Source of the DNA: Lewinellaceae bacterium
GTDB lineage: Bacteria > Bacteroidota > Bacteroidia > Chitinophagales > Saprospiraceae
Direction: 5' to 3'
Assembly (NCBI GenBank): GCA_029976695.1
Contig: JARQTN010000057.1
Span: 37,039-76,518, forward strand
Length of the DNA: 39,480 bases
The notes beneath the pieces are model-generated. The model worked only from the letters and a program-made list of their open reading frames with translations. It was not told the origin of the DNA and ran no database searches. Shown one piece after another: positions 7,491 through 13,945 of the stretch. Each line of letters opens with the position of its first letter. Positions within the stretch are counted from its first letter, which is position 1. The translations under genes were made by a program, and so were the position numbers.

Positions 7491-8885
7491 ATGGATAAAC
7501 GATTTGCGATCATAGATATTGAGACCACGGGCGGCATGGTCAAACGGGATAAAATTACGGAAATCGCGATTGTCCTGCATGACGGCCACCGCATTATCGA
7601 CCAATGGGACACCCTGATCTATCCGGAAAGAAGCATTCCCGAGTACATCACAAGGATTACAGGCATCACGAATGAAATGGTGGCAGAAGCTCCCAAATTC
7701 TACGAGGTTGCTCGGAAAATCGTTGAAATGACGGAAGGTGCAGTCTTTGTTGCACACAATGTGCGGTTTGACTATGGGTTCATCAGGGCAGAATTCCAGC
7801 GGTTGGGATACACGTATACGCGCAAGCAATTATGCACCGTCAGGCTGACACGGAAGCTTTTTCCTGGTCTCGGTTCATATTCACTGGGCAACCTGATCAG
7901 GCATTTTGGCATCTCAGTCAATGCCCGGCACCGGGCACTGGATGACACCCTCGCTACTACGATCGTATTTGAGCATATCCTCGATGCAGATGCAGATAAC
8001 GAGAATGTAAAGCACTTCGTTAACCGGGGTATCCGTGAGTCGAAACTGCCTGCGAATGTGGACCTTGACGATCTCCACAACCTTCCTGAATTGCCCGGAG
8101 TGTATTACTTCCTTGACCAGGACGGCCAGGTGGTGTACGTTGGTAAAAGTATCAACATCCAGAAGCGGGTGATGCAGCATTTCGCAAGAATTACGGATAA
8201 AGCTGCAAAAATGCAGCAGAAGGTGGCTTCCATCGAGTACACTCTGACAGGTAGTGAACTCATTGCCTTGCTGCTCGAAAACAAGGAAATCAAAAAACTG
8301 CAGCCCGAGATCAACAGGGCCTTGAGGCGAAAGTCTTTTCCTTATGTGGCATATGCTGCATATGACCTGGATGGCTATATTTTCCTTGGTGTGCAGAAGA
8401 AGAACAAAATTGCCGATCGAAATGCCGTCATCATCCATGAGTATCCTGATCTCAGGGCTGCCCGAGGGGCGGTTAAGCGCATGATCGACTCCTTCGAGCT
8501 TTGCGAAAACAAGAGTGACCATGCGACAGGGCCGGGATCCTGTTTTTCTTTTAAAATCGGGAAGTGTAGGGGGGCATGTACCGGCGAAGAGAAGCCGGAA
8601 TCCTATAACGAAAGGGCTGAACTGGCAATGCGCATGCTCCGGAAATCAGTTGAAGACAACCTCGTCATTATCGACCGGGGCAGGGAGCCCGATGAAAAAT
8701 CACTTGTAGCCATTGTGGATGGAAAACTTTATGGTTGGGGTTATGCCCATGAAACCGATCTGCAGATCAACTCGCTCGATCATGCGCTCGAGCATATCAG
8801 GCCGTGCAATGCAACGCCAGAGGATATCAAGATCCTGCACTGGTTTATCCATGAAAACAAGGTTGAAAAAATGATCGCGTTTTAG
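7491..8885 (+). CDS. DEDDh exonuclease fused to GIY-YIG/UvrC-like nuclease
   Basis: This 464-residue protein joins two nucleases. Residues 1-165 are a DnaQ/epsilon-like 3'-5' exonuclease with all DEDDh residues visible: D9 and E11 in IDIETTG, D94 in NVRFD, H147 and D152 in HRALDD. Residues about 195-280 are a GIY-YIG domain like those of UvrC and Cho (GVY at 203-205, YVG at 216-218, R226, catalytic-type E263 in LLENKEIKK). The C-terminal part carries four cysteines, C338, C351, C359 and C363, spaced like the UvrC cysteine cluster. No UvrB-binding or RNase H-like domain of full UvrC is evident. The likely role is DNA repair incision with end trimming. The fusion is known in Bacteroidota and Actinobacteria, but its function there is largely inferred. 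Its stop codon interlocks with that of pyrF. Confidence 0.9.
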   Translation: MDKRFAIIDIETTGGMVKRDKITEIAIVLHDGHRIIDQWDTLIYPERSIPEYITRITGITNEMVAEAPKFYEVARKIVEMTEGAVFVAHNVRFDYGFIRAEFQRLGYTYTRKQLCTVRLTRKLFPGLGSYSLGNLIRHFGISVNARHRALDDTLATTIVFEHILDADADNENVKHFVNRGIRESKLPANVDLDDLHNLPELPGVYYFLDQDGQVVYVGKSINIQKRVMQHFARITDKAAKMQQKVASIEYTLTGSELIALLLENKEIKKLQPEINRALRRKSFPYVAYAAYDLDGYIFLGVQKKNKIADRNAVIIHEYPDLRAARGAVKRMIDSFELCENKSDHATGPGSCFSFKIGKCRGACTGEEKPESYNERAELAMRMLRKSVEDNLVIIDRGREPDEKSLVAIVDGKLYGWGYAHETDLQINSLDHALEHIRPCNATPEDIKILHWFIHENKVEKMIAF

Positions 8886-9700
8886 CCCCGCTGTTGCCCG
8901 ATGAACCGGGCCATATGCTGCTGCAATTTCAAGGCTTCTTCACGGGCCGCTTTGTCAAAGGCATCGGTGCTGTCCGCGTAGATGATCCCCCTGCTGGAAT
9001 TGATGAGCATCCCACATTGCGGATTCCAGCCTGCCCTCGATATCGCCTCCAGGTCTCCACCCTGTGCACCTACCCCGGGAATCAGGAAGAATGATTCGGG
9101 CAACGCCGCCCTGATTGAAACAAGCTGTTCAGGATGCGTCGCTCCGACCACATACATCAGTTGTTCGCGCCCGGCCCACTCTTTGGACTGCAAGATGACT
9201 TTTTCATACAGATGCACACCTTCCTTGTCTGCGATCATCTGGAAGTCATGGCTACCCGTGTTGGATGTCAGGCAAAGCAGGATCACCCATTTGCCGGGAA
9301 AATTCAGGAAGGGCTGGACGGAATCACGACCCATATAGGGATTCACCGTAATCGAATCAAATGGAAAAGTTTCAAAGAATGTCTTTGCATACATCCTGGA
9401 GGTATTCCCGATATCACCGCGTTTGGCATCCGCAATGGTAAAATGTGTGTTGGGGATATGATGGACTGTCTTGCGGAGGCTTTCCCATCCCTGGGGACCG
9501 AGGGACTCGTAAAATGCAATATTCAGTTTGTAAGCAACGCAAAGGTCATATGTGCTGTCTATGATGCGCCGGTTGAATTCAAATACCGGATCCGCGAGAT
9601 TTTTCAGATGCTGCGGGATTCTGGCCGGGTCCGTATCCAGGCCGACGCACAGATATGATTTCTTTTCAAAGATCTGGTCAGTTAGCTCCTGGTAAGTCAT
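8882..9700 (-). CDS. pyrF: Orotidine 5'-phosphate decarboxylase (type 2)
   Basis: This enzyme converts OMP to UMP, the last step of de novo pyrimidine synthesis. The product has 272 residues from ATG 9700. An in-frame TTG at 9712 would add four residues. Evidence: N-terminal CVGLDTDPARIP, the catalytic Asp-Lys-Asp region DAKRGDIGNTSRMYAK, FDSITVNPYMGRDSVQPF, and the phosphate-binding end FFLIPGVGAQGG and SSRGIIYA. The length and DAKRGDIG form place it in the longer bacterial subfamily (PyrF type 2). It follows nfu by a few bases (the nfu stop ends 14 bp before ATG 9700), so it probably shares the mrp-nfu transcript. Confidence 0.95.
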   Translation of the reverse strand: MTYQELTDQIFEKKSYLCVGLDTDPARIPQHLKNLADPVFEFNRRIIDSTYDLCVAYKLNIAFYESLGPQGWESLRKTVHHIPNTHFTIADAKRGDIGNTSRMYAKTFFETFPFDSITVNPYMGRDSVQPFLNFPGKWVILLCLTSNTGSHDFQMIADKEGVHLYEKVILQSKEWAGREQLMYVVGATHPEQLVSIRAALPESFFLIPGVGAQGGDLEAISRAGWNPQCGMLINSSRGIIYADSTDAFDKAAREEALKLQQHMARFIGQQRG

Positions 9701-9714
9701 GTGATCAGGCAAAT

Positions 9715-9969
9715 TCAGGATTCGTTGATGGCAATGATCGTTTCAATCTGGGGGAACTGCGACTTGATGGTTTGTTCAACACCCGCTTTCATCGTCATTT
9801 CACTCATGGCACAGGTCTGGCAGTTTCCCAGCCACTTTACCATAACACACATGTCATCCGTGATGTCCATCACCTCGATGTCACCCCCGTCAACTGCCAG
9901 GTGCGGACGGATGCTTTCCAGCGCTGCATTGATCTCGGTCAATAATTTTTCCTTATCCCCGGCAGACAT
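9715..9969 (-). CDS. NifU C-terminal-domain (Nfu) Fe-S scaffold protein
   Basis: An 84-residue single-domain Nfu protein. The CxxC of the family is present at C50-x-x-C53 (WLGNCQTCAMSEMT), together with the conserved RPHLAVDGGDIEV opening. Nfu proteins bind a [4Fe-4S] cluster between two subunits and pass it to client enzymes. The gene lies directly downstream of mrp, another Fe-S carrier type, and upstream of pyrF on the same strand, so a shared cluster-delivery role with Mrp is plausible. Start ATG 9969 gives MSAGDKEKLL, a normal length for stand-alone Nfu. Confidence 0.92.
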   Translation of the reverse strand: MSAGDKEKLLTEINAALESIRPHLAVDGGDIEVMDITDDMCVMVKWLGNCQTCAMSEMTMKAGVEQTIKSQFPQIETIIAINES

Positions 9970-10017
9970 CGTTCATTGCGTATATCCAATCAAAAATACA
10001 ATTCATCGGCAAACCAA

Positions 10018-11115
10018 TTAGTTCTTCAGCTCAACGCGTGCAGTCGGTGCCTTGGTGCTGTTCCTGATTTCTACTTGTTCCATCAGGTTGCGCGCGATAT
10101 CCAGGAAATACTTTTTCTGATCCTCAAATCCGCTTTCCACACTTGGTTTTCCAAGATCGCCTCCCTCCCGGATGCCCTGGATGAGGGGTACCTTTCCAAG
10201 GAGCATGGACCCGCTTTTCTGTGCGAGCTTTTCGCCCCCGCCTTCCCCAAACAGGTAATACCTGTTATCCGGCAATTCCTTTGGCGTAAACCAGGACATG
10301 TTTTCCACGACTCCCACCACAGGGACTTCAACGCCGTCAAGCAAAAACATATTCATTGCCTTTACAGCATCGATGACAGCTACCTCCTGGGGTGTTGTGA
10401 CCATCACAACCCCGGTGACGGGAACTGTTTGCACAAGGGTCAACTGGATGTCCCCGGTGCCTGGTGGCAGGTCGATAATCATGTAGTCCAGTTCGGGCCA
10501 GATGACATCGTTGATGAATTGTTTGATAATGCCGGATAAACGGGGTCCGCGCAGGACAACGGCCTGTTCGGGATCGACAACAAACCCGATCGAAATGACA
10601 TTCATGCCGTATGCCTCCAGCGGGATGATTTTGTGTGCCCCATAGACCTGTTTCACTTTCGGCCGTTGGCCCTTGAGGCCGAGCATTGTCGGAATGGAAG
10701 GGCCGTACAGGTCAGCATCGATCAATGCCACCCGCGCGCCGAGTTGTTTTAATCCAAGCGCAAGGTTGACTGACATCGTGGATTTCCCCACACCGCCCTT
10801 GCCACTGGCCACAGCAATGATATTCTTTGCCTGTGGTAACGCTCCGCTTTTTCGCGCTGCACTGTCCCTGGGTGCACCCAGCATGTGCACGTGGACCTGG
10901 GCCTCGGGGTATTCCTTCAGAATTGCCTCCTGGCAAGCGAAGTTCAGTGCGGACTTCTGCGCATCATCTATCCCGCTGATGTCAAGTTCAAACTGTACGC
11001 GGTTGCCTTCAATTTTCAGGTTTTTGATCCTGCGCTGGGTGATCAGGTCTTGCCCGTTGACCGGGTCTGCCACGGTACGCAGGATATCTACGATTTTATT
11101 ATTGTCAATCTGCAT
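10018..11115 (-). CDS. mrp: Mrp/ApbC/NBP35 family P-loop ATPase
   Basis: A 365-residue protein with an N-terminal MIP18/DUF59 domain (about 1-85, 'ILRTVADPVNGQDL') followed by a MinD-like ATPase (about 96-350). The deviant Walker A GKGGVGKST is at 105-113. IDADLYGPSIPTMLG, DYMIIDLPPGTGD and REGGDLG follow. Mrp/ApbC proteins act in Fe-S cluster loading. The CxxC usually found after 'VENMS' is absent here: the sequence reads VVENMSWFTPKELPDNRYYLFG. I recall this form as common in Bacteroidota homologs. It heads the leftward mrp-nfu-pyrF cluster and is divergent from ribF. Confidence 0.93.
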   Translation of the reverse strand: MQIDNNKIVDILRTVADPVNGQDLITQRRIKNLKIEGNRVQFELDISGIDDAQKSALNFACQEAILKEYPEAQVHVHMLGAPRDSAARKSGALPQAKNIIAVASGKGGVGKSTMSVNLALGLKQLGARVALIDADLYGPSIPTMLGLKGQRPKVKQVYGAHKIIPLEAYGMNVISIGFVVDPEQAVVLRGPRLSGIIKQFINDVIWPELDYMIIDLPPGTGDIQLTLVQTVPVTGVVMVTTPQEVAVIDAVKAMNMFLLDGVEVPVVGVVENMSWFTPKELPDNRYYLFGEGGGEKLAQKSGSMLLGKVPLIQGIREGGDLGKPSVESGFEDQKKYFLDIARNLMEQVEIRNSTKAPTARVELKN

Positions 11116-11208: not shown

Positions 11209-13218
11209 ATGAACATCTTTTTCAATTTGGATGACCTCCCCGCATTTCAGAAAACTGTCATTACCATCGGGGCATTTGACGGTGTACATGCAGGACATCA
11301 GAAGATTGTAAAGCGTGTTCATCACCTTGCCAAAGAACAAGCTGCCGAATCTGTTGTCATCACCTTTCATCCACACCCACGCGAAGTAATCTATCCCAAA
11401 GATACATCTCTTGAATTACTCACCACGCTGGAAGAGAAATTCCCCTATTTTGAACGTGAAGGGATCGACCACGTAGTGGTTGTCCCCTTTACGATCGAAT
11501 TTTCTCAGATGTCCCCCCGCGAATACGTCGAGAAGTTCCTGATCGGCAACTTTCACCCGGCAAGTATTGTCATCGGGTATGATCACAGGTTTGGGCTCAA
11601 CCGTGCGGGCAATGTCGACTTGCTGAAGGAGTACGAACGCAAGGGGCTTTTCACGGTTGTGGAAATCGCGAAACACGAGACCAGGGAAATCGTGATCAGT
11701 TCCACAAAGATCAGGAATGCCATCTCAAATGCAGATATCAAATTAGCCAATCAGCTGTTGGGACACGCCTACGTGCTTTCCGGTAAAATCGTGCATGGCC
11801 AGAAACTCGGTACGAGGCTTGGATTTCCGACGGCAAATATCGAAGTGGATTTTTCCAGGAAACTCGTACCTCCAGACGGGATCTATGCTGTTCGTGTAGA
11901 AGTCAATGAACGGGAATATGAAGGCATGCTCTACATCGGCAAGCGACCCACGCTGGGAGCCGGGGAACAGAAATCCATAGAAGTCAATATTTTTCATTTC
12001 AATCAACGCATTTACGGGGAATCAATCAGGGTCTTCTTCATGGATTTTATCCGCACGGACCAGCAATTCGATTCATTAGATGACCTGCGCGCACAACTTG
12101 AGAAAGACCGTACACATGTCATGGAATATTTCAGGGAACCAAATGCCCCGGAACAGATGACTCCGGAGTTAGCGGTTGTCATACTGAATTACAATGGCCT
12201 TTCATTCCTGGAAAAGTTCCTTGATTCTTTTACCCGCATCGTGTATTCCAATTACCGGATATACCTTGCGGACAACGCATCGACAGACAGTTCGATCGCA
12301 TTTGTGGAAAAGTATTTTCCCTCTGTGCATGTGATCAGGCTGGACCGGAATTATGGTTTCGCAGAGGGGTACAACAGGGCTTTAGGCCAGATAGAGGCAG
12401 ACTACTACGCGATCGTCAATTCAGACCTTGAGCTCACCCCAGAATGGGCCTCCAGGATCATTACATATATGGAGGAACACCCTGACACTGCCGTTTGCCA
12501 GCCAAAGATACTGGATGTGAAAAATAAGGAAGCCTTCGAATATGCAGGTGCAGCCGGCGGGTATATCGATCTTTTGGGCTACCCTTTTTGCCGGGGACGG
12601 ATCCTGGATACCATCGAGAAGGATACCGGACAGTACAATGACATTCAATCCATATTCTGGGCCACGGGAGCAGCCTGCATCATCCGCGCGGAAGCCTTCA
12701 GGTTAGTCGGTGGCTTTGATCGTGATTATTTCGCTCACCAGGAGGAAATCGATCTCTGCTGGCGGCTCCAACGGGCAGGATACCAGATCAGGGTGATCCC
12801 CTCTTCCATCGTATTCCATGTGGGAGGCGGTACACTGGACTATCAGGATCCGCACAAAGTGTATTTGAATTTCAGGAACAACCTTGCTACGCTGATTAAA
12901 AACCAGTCAAGGTTGCCGCTTATGATCGTACTGTTGATCCGGCTCGTCCTGGATGGGCTGGCCGGGCTAAACTTCATCGTCAAGGGTCAATTTAAAAATT
13001 GCAGTGCCGTCGTCCGTGCGCATTTGAGCCTCTACGGATGGATTCCCGGGCTCATGAAAAAGCGGCGTGCATTTAAAAAGCGGCTTGCCGATATGCATAT
13101 TGAGCCTGTTAAAAAACTCAAGGGCGTCTACCGGGGATATATGCTCATCGATTATTATCTCATGGGCAGGAAGAGATTCTCCCGATTGCCGGTGAACAAG
13201 GGAACAAATGAGCTTTGA
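11209..13218 (+). CDS. ribF: RibF (riboflavin kinase/FAD synthetase) fused to GT2 glycosyltransferase
   Basis: One uninterrupted 669-codon frame. Residues 1-316 are a complete bifunctional RibF that makes FMN from riboflavin and FAD from FMN: nucleotidylyltransferase motifs GAFDGVHAGH (21-30) and ISSTKIR (163-169), riboflavin-kinase motif LGFPTAN (204-210), and the usual C-terminal helix 'FDSLDDLRAQLEKD' (288-301). From about residue 317 a family 2 glycosyltransferase begins (LAVVILNYNG, LADNASTDSS, the DxD-equivalent NSD at 404-406, GGFDRDYFAHQEEIDLCWR), resembling rhamnosyltransferase-type enzymes. There is no stop between them. An in-frame ATG at 12157 (M317) could start the glycosyltransferase separately. 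The two activities are not known to be linked. Overlaps the next gene by 11 bp. Confidence 0.9.
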   Translation: MNIFFNLDDLPAFQKTVITIGAFDGVHAGHQKIVKRVHHLAKEQAAESVVITFHPHPREVIYPKDTSLELLTTLEEKFPYFEREGIDHVVVVPFTIEFSQMSPREYVEKFLIGNFHPASIVIGYDHRFGLNRAGNVDLLKEYERKGLFTVVEIAKHETREIVISSTKIRNAISNADIKLANQLLGHAYVLSGKIVHGQKLGTRLGFPTANIEVDFSRKLVPPDGIYAVRVEVNEREYEGMLYIGKRPTLGAGEQKSIEVNIFHFNQRIYGESIRVFFMDFIRTDQQFDSLDDLRAQLEKDRTHVMEYFREPNAPEQMTPELAVVILNYNGLSFLEKFLDSFTRIVYSNYRIYLADNASTDSSIAFVEKYFPSVHVIRLDRNYGFAEGYNRALGQIEADYYAIVNSDLELTPEWASRIITYMEEHPDTAVCQPKILDVKNKEAFEYAGAAGGYIDLLGYPFCRGRILDTIEKDTGQYNDIQSIFWATGAACIIRAEAFRLVGGFDRDYFAHQEEIDLCWRLQRAGYQIRVIPSSIVFHVGGGTLDYQDPHKVYLNFRNNLATLIKNQSRLPLMIVLLIRLVLDGLAGLNFIVKGQFKNCSAVVRAHLSLYGWIPGLMKKRRAFKKRLADMHIEPVKKLKGVYRGYMLIDYYLMGRKRFSRLPVNKGTNEL

Positions 13219-13945
13219 CGTAAAAGTGGTCTTCAAAGACGAGGATATCCTCTGTATTGAGAAACCGGCAGGAAGCCTGTCTATCCCGGACAGGTACGAT
13301 CCATCGAAAAAGAATATTTACCATTACCTGCAGAACAGGCACCCTGGTGTCATGCCGGTACACCGGCTCGACAAGGACACAAGCGGTATTATGGTGTGGG
13401 CCCTCAATGAACAGGCACACAGGTCACTGAACACCCAGTTTGCCGACCGCCAGGTCATCAAGCATTACCTGGCCATTGTGCATGGAAATATGCATGAATC
13501 GCACGGAAAAATTGATGCGGCTATTGCCTATGGCAGTTCCGGGAAGGGAATGGTGAACAGAAAGGGGAAACCATCGCAAACTTCATGGAGGCTGGTCGAA
13601 CAATTCCGGGATTTTGCCCTTCTGGAAGTTACGCCACACACTGGGCGGACCCACCAGATCAGGATCCATTTGCAGCATATTGGCCATCCGTTAGCCGTGG
13701 ATGCACTTTATGGTCAGCGGTCTGCTTTGTATGCCCACGATATCAAAACGCAGGGAAAATTCAATTACCGGAAGGGAAAGGAATTACGACCGCTTATAGG
13801 CAGGCATACCCTTCACGCGAGCCGCCTCATTTTTCTGCATCCTGTAACAGGGTCCGAGGTCTCCTTCACCGCCGGGTTACCCAAAGATTTTCGTGCCTTG
13901 CTCAACCAGCTGGAAAAATGGCGCAAGCCTGCCAAACCTGAATGA
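13208..13945 (+). CDS. RluA-family RNA pseudouridine synthase
   Basis: This 245-residue enzyme should isomerise uridine to pseudouridine in rRNA or tRNA. Evidence: catalytic motif HRLDKDTSG with D55, N-terminal VVFKDEDILCIEKPAG, the LLEVTPHTGRTHQIRIHL motif and HPLAVDALYG. There is no S4 RNA-binding domain, so the protein is short like RluA, TruC or RluC-core enzymes. The exact target cannot be told from the sequence. It starts inside the last codons of the RibF-glycosyltransferase frame (ATGAGC, 11-bp overlap), which suggests translational coupling. Confidence 0.93.
   Translation: MSFDVKVVFKDEDILCIEKPAGSLSIPDRYDPSKKNIYHYLQNRHPGVMPVHRLDKDTSGIMVWALNEQAHRSLNTQFADRQVIKHYLAIVHGNMHESHGKIDAAIAYGSSGKGMVNRKGKPSQTSWRLVEQFRDFALLEVTPHTGRTHQIRIHLQHIGHPLAVDALYGQRSALYAHDIKTQGKFNYRKGKELRPLIGRHTLHASRLIFLHPVTGSEVSFTAGLPKDFRALLNQLEKWRKPAKPE

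Follow-up and report, generated by a model that had tools for sequence, protein, structure and literature searches.

Can an enzyme of flavin cofactor synthesis and a glycosyltransferase be parts of one and the same bacterial protein? This question is raised by a gene of the window (the whole stretch of 39,480 nucleotides analyzed here), which extends over 11209..13218 on the forward strand, starts with an ATG and encodes 669 amino acids. The preliminary description of this locus had read it as RibF fused in frame to a family 2 (GT2) glycosyltransferase, and had proposed as options a true fusion, the loss of a stop codon, an internal start at M317 giving two proteins, or a sequence error at the junction. 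The analysis indicates that this fusion is a real and old pairing and not a sequencing error.

Domain organization of the fused gene

The in-frame reading without a stop is borne out by a Pfam search of the 669-residue protein, which returned three domains in this single frame. FAD_syn (PF06574) covers residues 14-166 (E 4.6e-48) and Flavokinase (PF01687) residues 184-308 (E 3.1e-40), both above their cut-offs, and Glycos_transf_2 (PF00535) covers residues 323-432 (E 3.2e-22). The FMN adenylyltransferase (FAD synthetase) module is followed by the riboflavin kinase module, as in a bifunctional RibF, and then by the GT2 domain. The RibF half, residues 1-310 (11209..12138, forward strand), is recognized by Pfam, by the NCBIfam RibF models, by its likeness to solved RibF structures and by its motif residues. 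It is complete, since the RibF models are matched as far as residue 306-312: TIGR00083 is matched from position 1 to 290 of 290 with a score of 268.3 for a cut-off of 184.35, NF004160 reaches 299.5 bits for a cut-off of 295 and NF004162 also exceeds its own, while five other RibF equivalogs stay below theirs. The GT2 half, residues 318-669 (12160..13215, forward strand), aligns with free-standing relatives over approximately residues 317-660. PF00535, a DxD-type motif, acidic residues further downstream and matches to GT-A structures assign it to the GT2 family of GT-A fold; among the NCBIfam models, none for a specific transferase reached its cut-off. A linker of approximately residues 311-317 (12139..12159, forward strand) lies between the two halves.

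The known bifunctional RibF enzymes (PDB 2x0k from Corynebacterium ammoniagenes and 1mrz from Thermotoga maritima) likewise contain both modules, in the same order, at full length and with the motif residues retained, but the fusion protein adds to them about 355 C-terminal residues, which is an entire glycosyltransferase. The free-standing GT2 proteins of Bacteroidota (L025-L084, mostly Flavobacteriaceae) match approximately residues 317-660, some of them to about 620, and are 45-54% identical; unlike the GT half, they are separate proteins, and none of their 60 loci has ribF in its flanks. In the accessible part of a survey of B-vitamin gene fusions (PMC4921024), the RibFa and RibFk modules appear as a frequent fusion of neighboring pathway steps, whereas a glycosyltransferase is not named there as a partner of RibF. 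No report of a RibF-glycosyltransferase fusion was found in the literature as far as it was accessible, and the supplementary tables of that survey may contain an earlier listing.

The genome of the window (4.12 Mb, 97.2% complete, 263 contigs) gave no second FAD_syn or Flavokinase match beyond the fusion gene in a whole-genome search, and FMN and FAD should accordingly come from the fused protein. Four other fused genomes were searched for Flavokinase (G173, G182, G260 and G300), and each of them likewise gave a single match.

Distribution of the fusion

The order sample comprises 396 genomes, of which 137, spanning 62 genera, belong to Saprospiraceae, the GTDB family of the window. The same stop-free frame is present in 112 of these 137 genomes and in at least one genome for 51 of the 62 genera, which supports the true fusion among the four options. 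Relatives with separate genes, which the preliminary description would have taken as evidence against it, do exist (22/137), but as a minority beside the 112 fused genomes. In 21 of them ribF and the GT gene are adjacent on one strand, ribF coming first, and in G360 they lie about 81 kb apart on the same contig. Both states are found within genus g34, where G294 is split and G238 and G354 are fused. In the remaining three (G222, G256 and G328), neither half was detected at E 1e-5 save for weaker GT relatives, and no Flavokinase match was found. These genomes (L136-L138) are rated 97-98% complete, and yet neither ribF nor the orthologous glycosyltransferase was found in them; an assembly gap is likely, because a fused gene would go missing as one piece.

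Homologs spanning the junction, for which a search had been suggested, were found in a scan of genome contigs. Twenty of the best 80 of 517 relatives match both halves, the other 60 the GT half only, and the frame stays open across the junction in all 20 two-half records, ten of which are shared with the 112 fused genomes. The stops found within two of the 20 matched spans are C-terminal (residues 659-660), and L024 begins at residue 139, at a contig end. Fifteen of the 20 titles name Saprospiraceae, the others Bacteroidota, Bacteroidetes or Bacteroidia. The fusion is also present in the one-contig assembly G173 and in the four-contig assembly G182. The latter is most likely the finished genome of a cultured species, Haliscomenobacter hydrossis, whose type strain is described in the accessible part of PMC3156403 as a member of Saprospiraceae with three plasmids.

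Outside Saprospiraceae, no fusion was found in the order, class and phylum samples. Each non-Saprospiraceae row of the order sample covers one half only among the matches listed (to E 6.6e-106), and fusions are expected above this value since every Saprospiraceae fusion ranks there. In the samples of the class and of the phylum (395 genomes apiece, with some genomes in common between them and with the order sample), two-half spans at E 1e-108 or better are confined to Saprospiraceae. Five genomes of these samples (G507, G635, G584, G428 and G894) were rejected as fusions, long open frames notwithstanding: a stop precedes the GT match by 6-21 bases and the gene upstream is a different one. In the first four (L301-L304), which belong to other families of the class, an unrelated frame of 490-516 codons stops 9-21 bases short of the GT match; this upstream gene is in the frame of the GT but behind a stop, at the place held by ribF in Saprospiraceae. 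Of 42 genomes from the order's other families, 38 gave matches to both genes at E 1e-60, and in none of these were the two adjacent: in six they share a contig, at a distance of 9.6 kb or more, and in 32 they are on different contigs, where a contig break may hide an adjacency.

Evolutionary history of the fusion

A tree of 164 rows including outgroups needs the fused state to change 10 times, and well-supported branches force 8 of these changes; a tree of the 134 Saprospiraceae rows requires 7. Both are quick trees without a mixture model, and the outgroup rows of the former consist of the GT half alone. In the larger tree, split members are nested among fused ones (G294 with the two fused g34 members, G155 with G093, genus g4 with genus g28), and an early single fusion followed by several fissions is therefore the simplest account. 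The same tree places the fused G300 among the outgroup and the outgroup fragment G028 inside Saprospiraceae. Since a single clade of all fused rows survived an AU test (p 0.195), re-splitting is not proved. Fission of the fused gene in some lineages is the favored interpretation of these phylogenies, and the complete scenario, in which the fusion would have formed early in Saprospiraceae and later split in some lineages, is only partly supported by them.

The arrangement of the split genes is compatible with more than one history. In G057, G184, G226, G378, G155, G302 and G365, the two candidate frames either share an ATGA or overlap, by a few bases up to about 30, which would suit a fused gene broken by a frameshift and would suit ordinary coupled genes as well. 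Other split genomes have a spacer between the stop and the GT match, the longest being about 240 bases (G342).

The strongest competing account is a neutral one, in which the stop between two adjacent genes was lost early and the resulting fusion, devoid of a function of its own, was tolerated as both halves fold. It predicts the same product as the reading preferred here and differs from it in the advantage conferred. The 21 Saprospiraceae genomes that are split yet adjacent speak in its favor, as do the coexistence of both states within genus g34 and the unrelated neighbors of the free-standing GT elsewhere. Adjacent but split genes are nevertheless rarer than fused ones (21 versus 112), and, a new stop being an easy mutation, the long persistence of the open frame would suggest at least mild selection. 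Pure accident is disfavored by the retention of the fusion in 51 genera. Neutral read-through is accordingly a serious contender, with a little less than an even chance of being correct.

The junction and the possibility of two proteins

In the 112 fusions, the distance from the RibF residue aligned to position 300 to the GT core is 17-40 residues (median 27), with a variable sequence. The substitution pattern of this linker was compared with that of RibF in 26 close pairs. Differences at codon positions 1, 2 and 3 amount to 240, 201 and 415 over 696 codons of the linker, and to 1349, 788 and 3873 over 7788 codons of RibF; the length of the linker is identical in 18 of the 26 pairs. The linker evolves faster than RibF and has a weaker but clear third-position excess, like translated sequence.

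This region could nevertheless yield two proteins from the fused frame, through an internal start near the junction or through cleavage of the linker, in which case the fusion would be genetic only. The internal start put forward in the preliminary description, the ATG codon of M317 (12157..12159, forward strand), is indeed present in the window, together with a second ATG at M305; at least one ATG, GTG or TTG occurs in 71 of the 112 junctions, and the linker varies in sequence and is predicted with low confidence. Yet M317 is not conserved: no ATG is present in 96 of the 112 fused junctions and neither ATG, GTG nor TTG in 41 of them. A conserved internal start was consequently rejected as a general rule, the 71 individual junctions keeping their candidate start codons. 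Separate products would also put little pressure on the frame to stay open across 51 genera. The production of two proteins is thus unlikely, and a single protein agrees better with one stop-free frame and an unconserved internal start.

Conserved motifs and predicted structure

The impression that both halves are full length with intact motifs is sustained, as to the length of the RibF half, by the complete match to TIGR00083 and, as to the motifs, by a comparison of 28 positions, of which 20 are identical in all 112 Saprospiraceae fusions. The invariant positions are G21, D24, G25, H27, H30, S165, R169, T208, N210 and E258 in RibF, and D355, N404, D406, W484, G487, E512, E513, D515, H537 and N557 in the GT half. 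D125, S164, P207, A209, W518 and F555 are each retained in 108-111 fusions and S405 in 98. Position 166 is occupied by T in 85 fusions and by S in the remaining 27; all other positions checked in the RibF motifs GxFDGxHxGH, SSTxIR and PTAN and at the catalytic glutamate are retained in 110-112 of the 112. In the GT half, N404, D406, E512, E513 and D515 presumably form the DxD-type motif and the downstream acidic residues of a GT2 enzyme of GT-A fold. Judged from this conservation, both halves appear to be active.

A structure of the fusion protein, predicted from 19 sequences (mean pLDDT 85.6, pTM 0.56), consists of two confident halves separated by residues of low confidence at 312-316 (pLDDT <50); a pTM this low is compatible with two bodies whose mutual orientation is not fixed. 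The model resembles solved RibF structures and, less closely, GT-A glycosyltransferases, among them GalNAc-T2 and GlfT2. A hydrophobic helix at approximately residues 569-591 of the GT half (Kyte-Doolittle mean of 2.17 over 19 residues) makes an association of this half with the membrane plausible.

Neighboring genes and the question of a functional link

The fusion gene is followed on the same strand by a gene for an RluA-family pseudouridine synthase (13208..13945), which overlaps its end by 11 bases. In 76 of the 112 fused loci, the next gene on the same strand is of the RluA type. An RluA-type gene also follows all 18 named fused loci with sufficient flank (a set overlapping the 112), as well as 6 of the 17 split loci with sufficient flank. 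It follows the GT in 0 of 28 outgroup GT loci and in 0 of 58 GT-only named loci. In L013, the frame past the stop of the fusion continues in-frame into the RluA-type gene, and the genes are therefore packed head to tail. On the other side, pyrF, a NifU-domain gene and a gene for an iron-sulfur carrier ATPase of the Mrp/NUBPL type (10018..11115, reverse strand) occupy 8882-11115 on the reverse strand of the window, divergent from the fusion. Mrp, NifU and PyrF relatives occur in the flanks of 58, 37 and 31 of the 112 fused loci, most flanks being of about 1.5-2 kb and the Mrp relatives being counted regardless of strand. Further upstream (7491-8885, forward strand), the window encodes a 464-residue protein in which a DnaQ-type exonuclease (PF00929) is joined to a GIY-YIG nuclease (PF01541). 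Two-domain proteins of this kind are known.

Of the 38 ribF loci available from other families, 20 were tested, and none of these has rluA, the GT or mrp in its flanks of about 3 kb. The absence of these neighbors makes the arrangement particular to Saprospiraceae, and an older ribF-rluA pair into which the GT was inserted was rejected on the same grounds. The commonest neighbors of the free-standing GT at the 60 named loci are an HSDR_N-like protein and DNA polymerase III delta (55 ORFs each, the assignments being based on one named example of each). The free-standing orthologue of the glycosyltransferase (L025-L084) has a conserved position in genomes of the flavobacterial type, close to the genes for an HSDR_N_2 protein and DNA polymerase III delta. 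These two neighbors were discarded as a clue to its role because they are uninformative on glycans. The genes surrounding the fusion give no pointer to a shared pathway.

On the Rosetta-stone argument a gene fusion signals a functional link, and the glycosyltransferase step might then depend on flavin that has just been made, or on a derivative of it, or the GT might hold RibF at the membrane. The persistence of the fusion in Saprospiraceae and the hydrophobic helix at 569-591 would be consistent with such a link. The neighborhoods described above argue against it, with neither the GT nor RluA at the 20 ribF loci outside Saprospiraceae and no ribF at the 60 GT-only loci. Both genes being present in 38 of 42 genomes of the other families and adjacent in none, no functional link appears there, and a general shared pathway is disfavored by the same genes being unlinked elsewhere. 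We regard a link of this type as improbable. A sequencing or assembly error, a chance read-through, or a stop lost in the genome of the window alone can be dismissed in spite of the 263 contigs of this assembly, since the fusion recurs in 111 other Saprospiraceae genomes, the one-contig and four-contig assemblies included, and in the 20 named records.

Meaning of the fusion

The best explanation, to which we give a probability of roughly 80%, is a single polypeptide with three activities, in which a short flexible linker joins RibF to a GT-A glycosyltransferase of family 2. The frame would be translated as one chain of about 75 kDa, whose N-terminal half would act as riboflavin kinase and FMN adenylyltransferase and whose GT half would also be active and may sit at the inner membrane, the two probably behaving as independent beads on a string. 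The two genes would have become neighbors early in Saprospiraceae before fusing, and would have separated again in some lineages. A possible advantage is co-expression at a fixed ratio, or the retention of RibF at the membrane. A point against this reading as a whole is that 22 of the 137 Saprospiraceae genomes manage without the fusion.

For annotation, the fusion is a family-level marker, carried by genes that are easily labeled as RibF only or as glycosyltransferase only. Through the fusion, a glycosyltransferase that is common across the order but otherwise anonymous becomes accessible to study. Caution is called for when gene fusions are used as evidence of functional links, since these two genes show no linkage in the other families examined. 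The cofactors that RibF makes are essential, and the fused genomes tested gave no second copy of it. Retained by most of the family, the fusion thus amounts to a natural experiment, in which either the tether is of use or RibF can bear a large partner at its C-terminus without cost. The matter can be tested, as the fusion appears to be present in a cultured species. It is a long shot that a membrane-associated glycosyltransferase keeps the only FMN- and FAD-making enzyme of the cell at the inner membrane, or links flavin supply to glycan assembly; if this were true, an entire bacterial family would have its flavin synthesis spatially organized.
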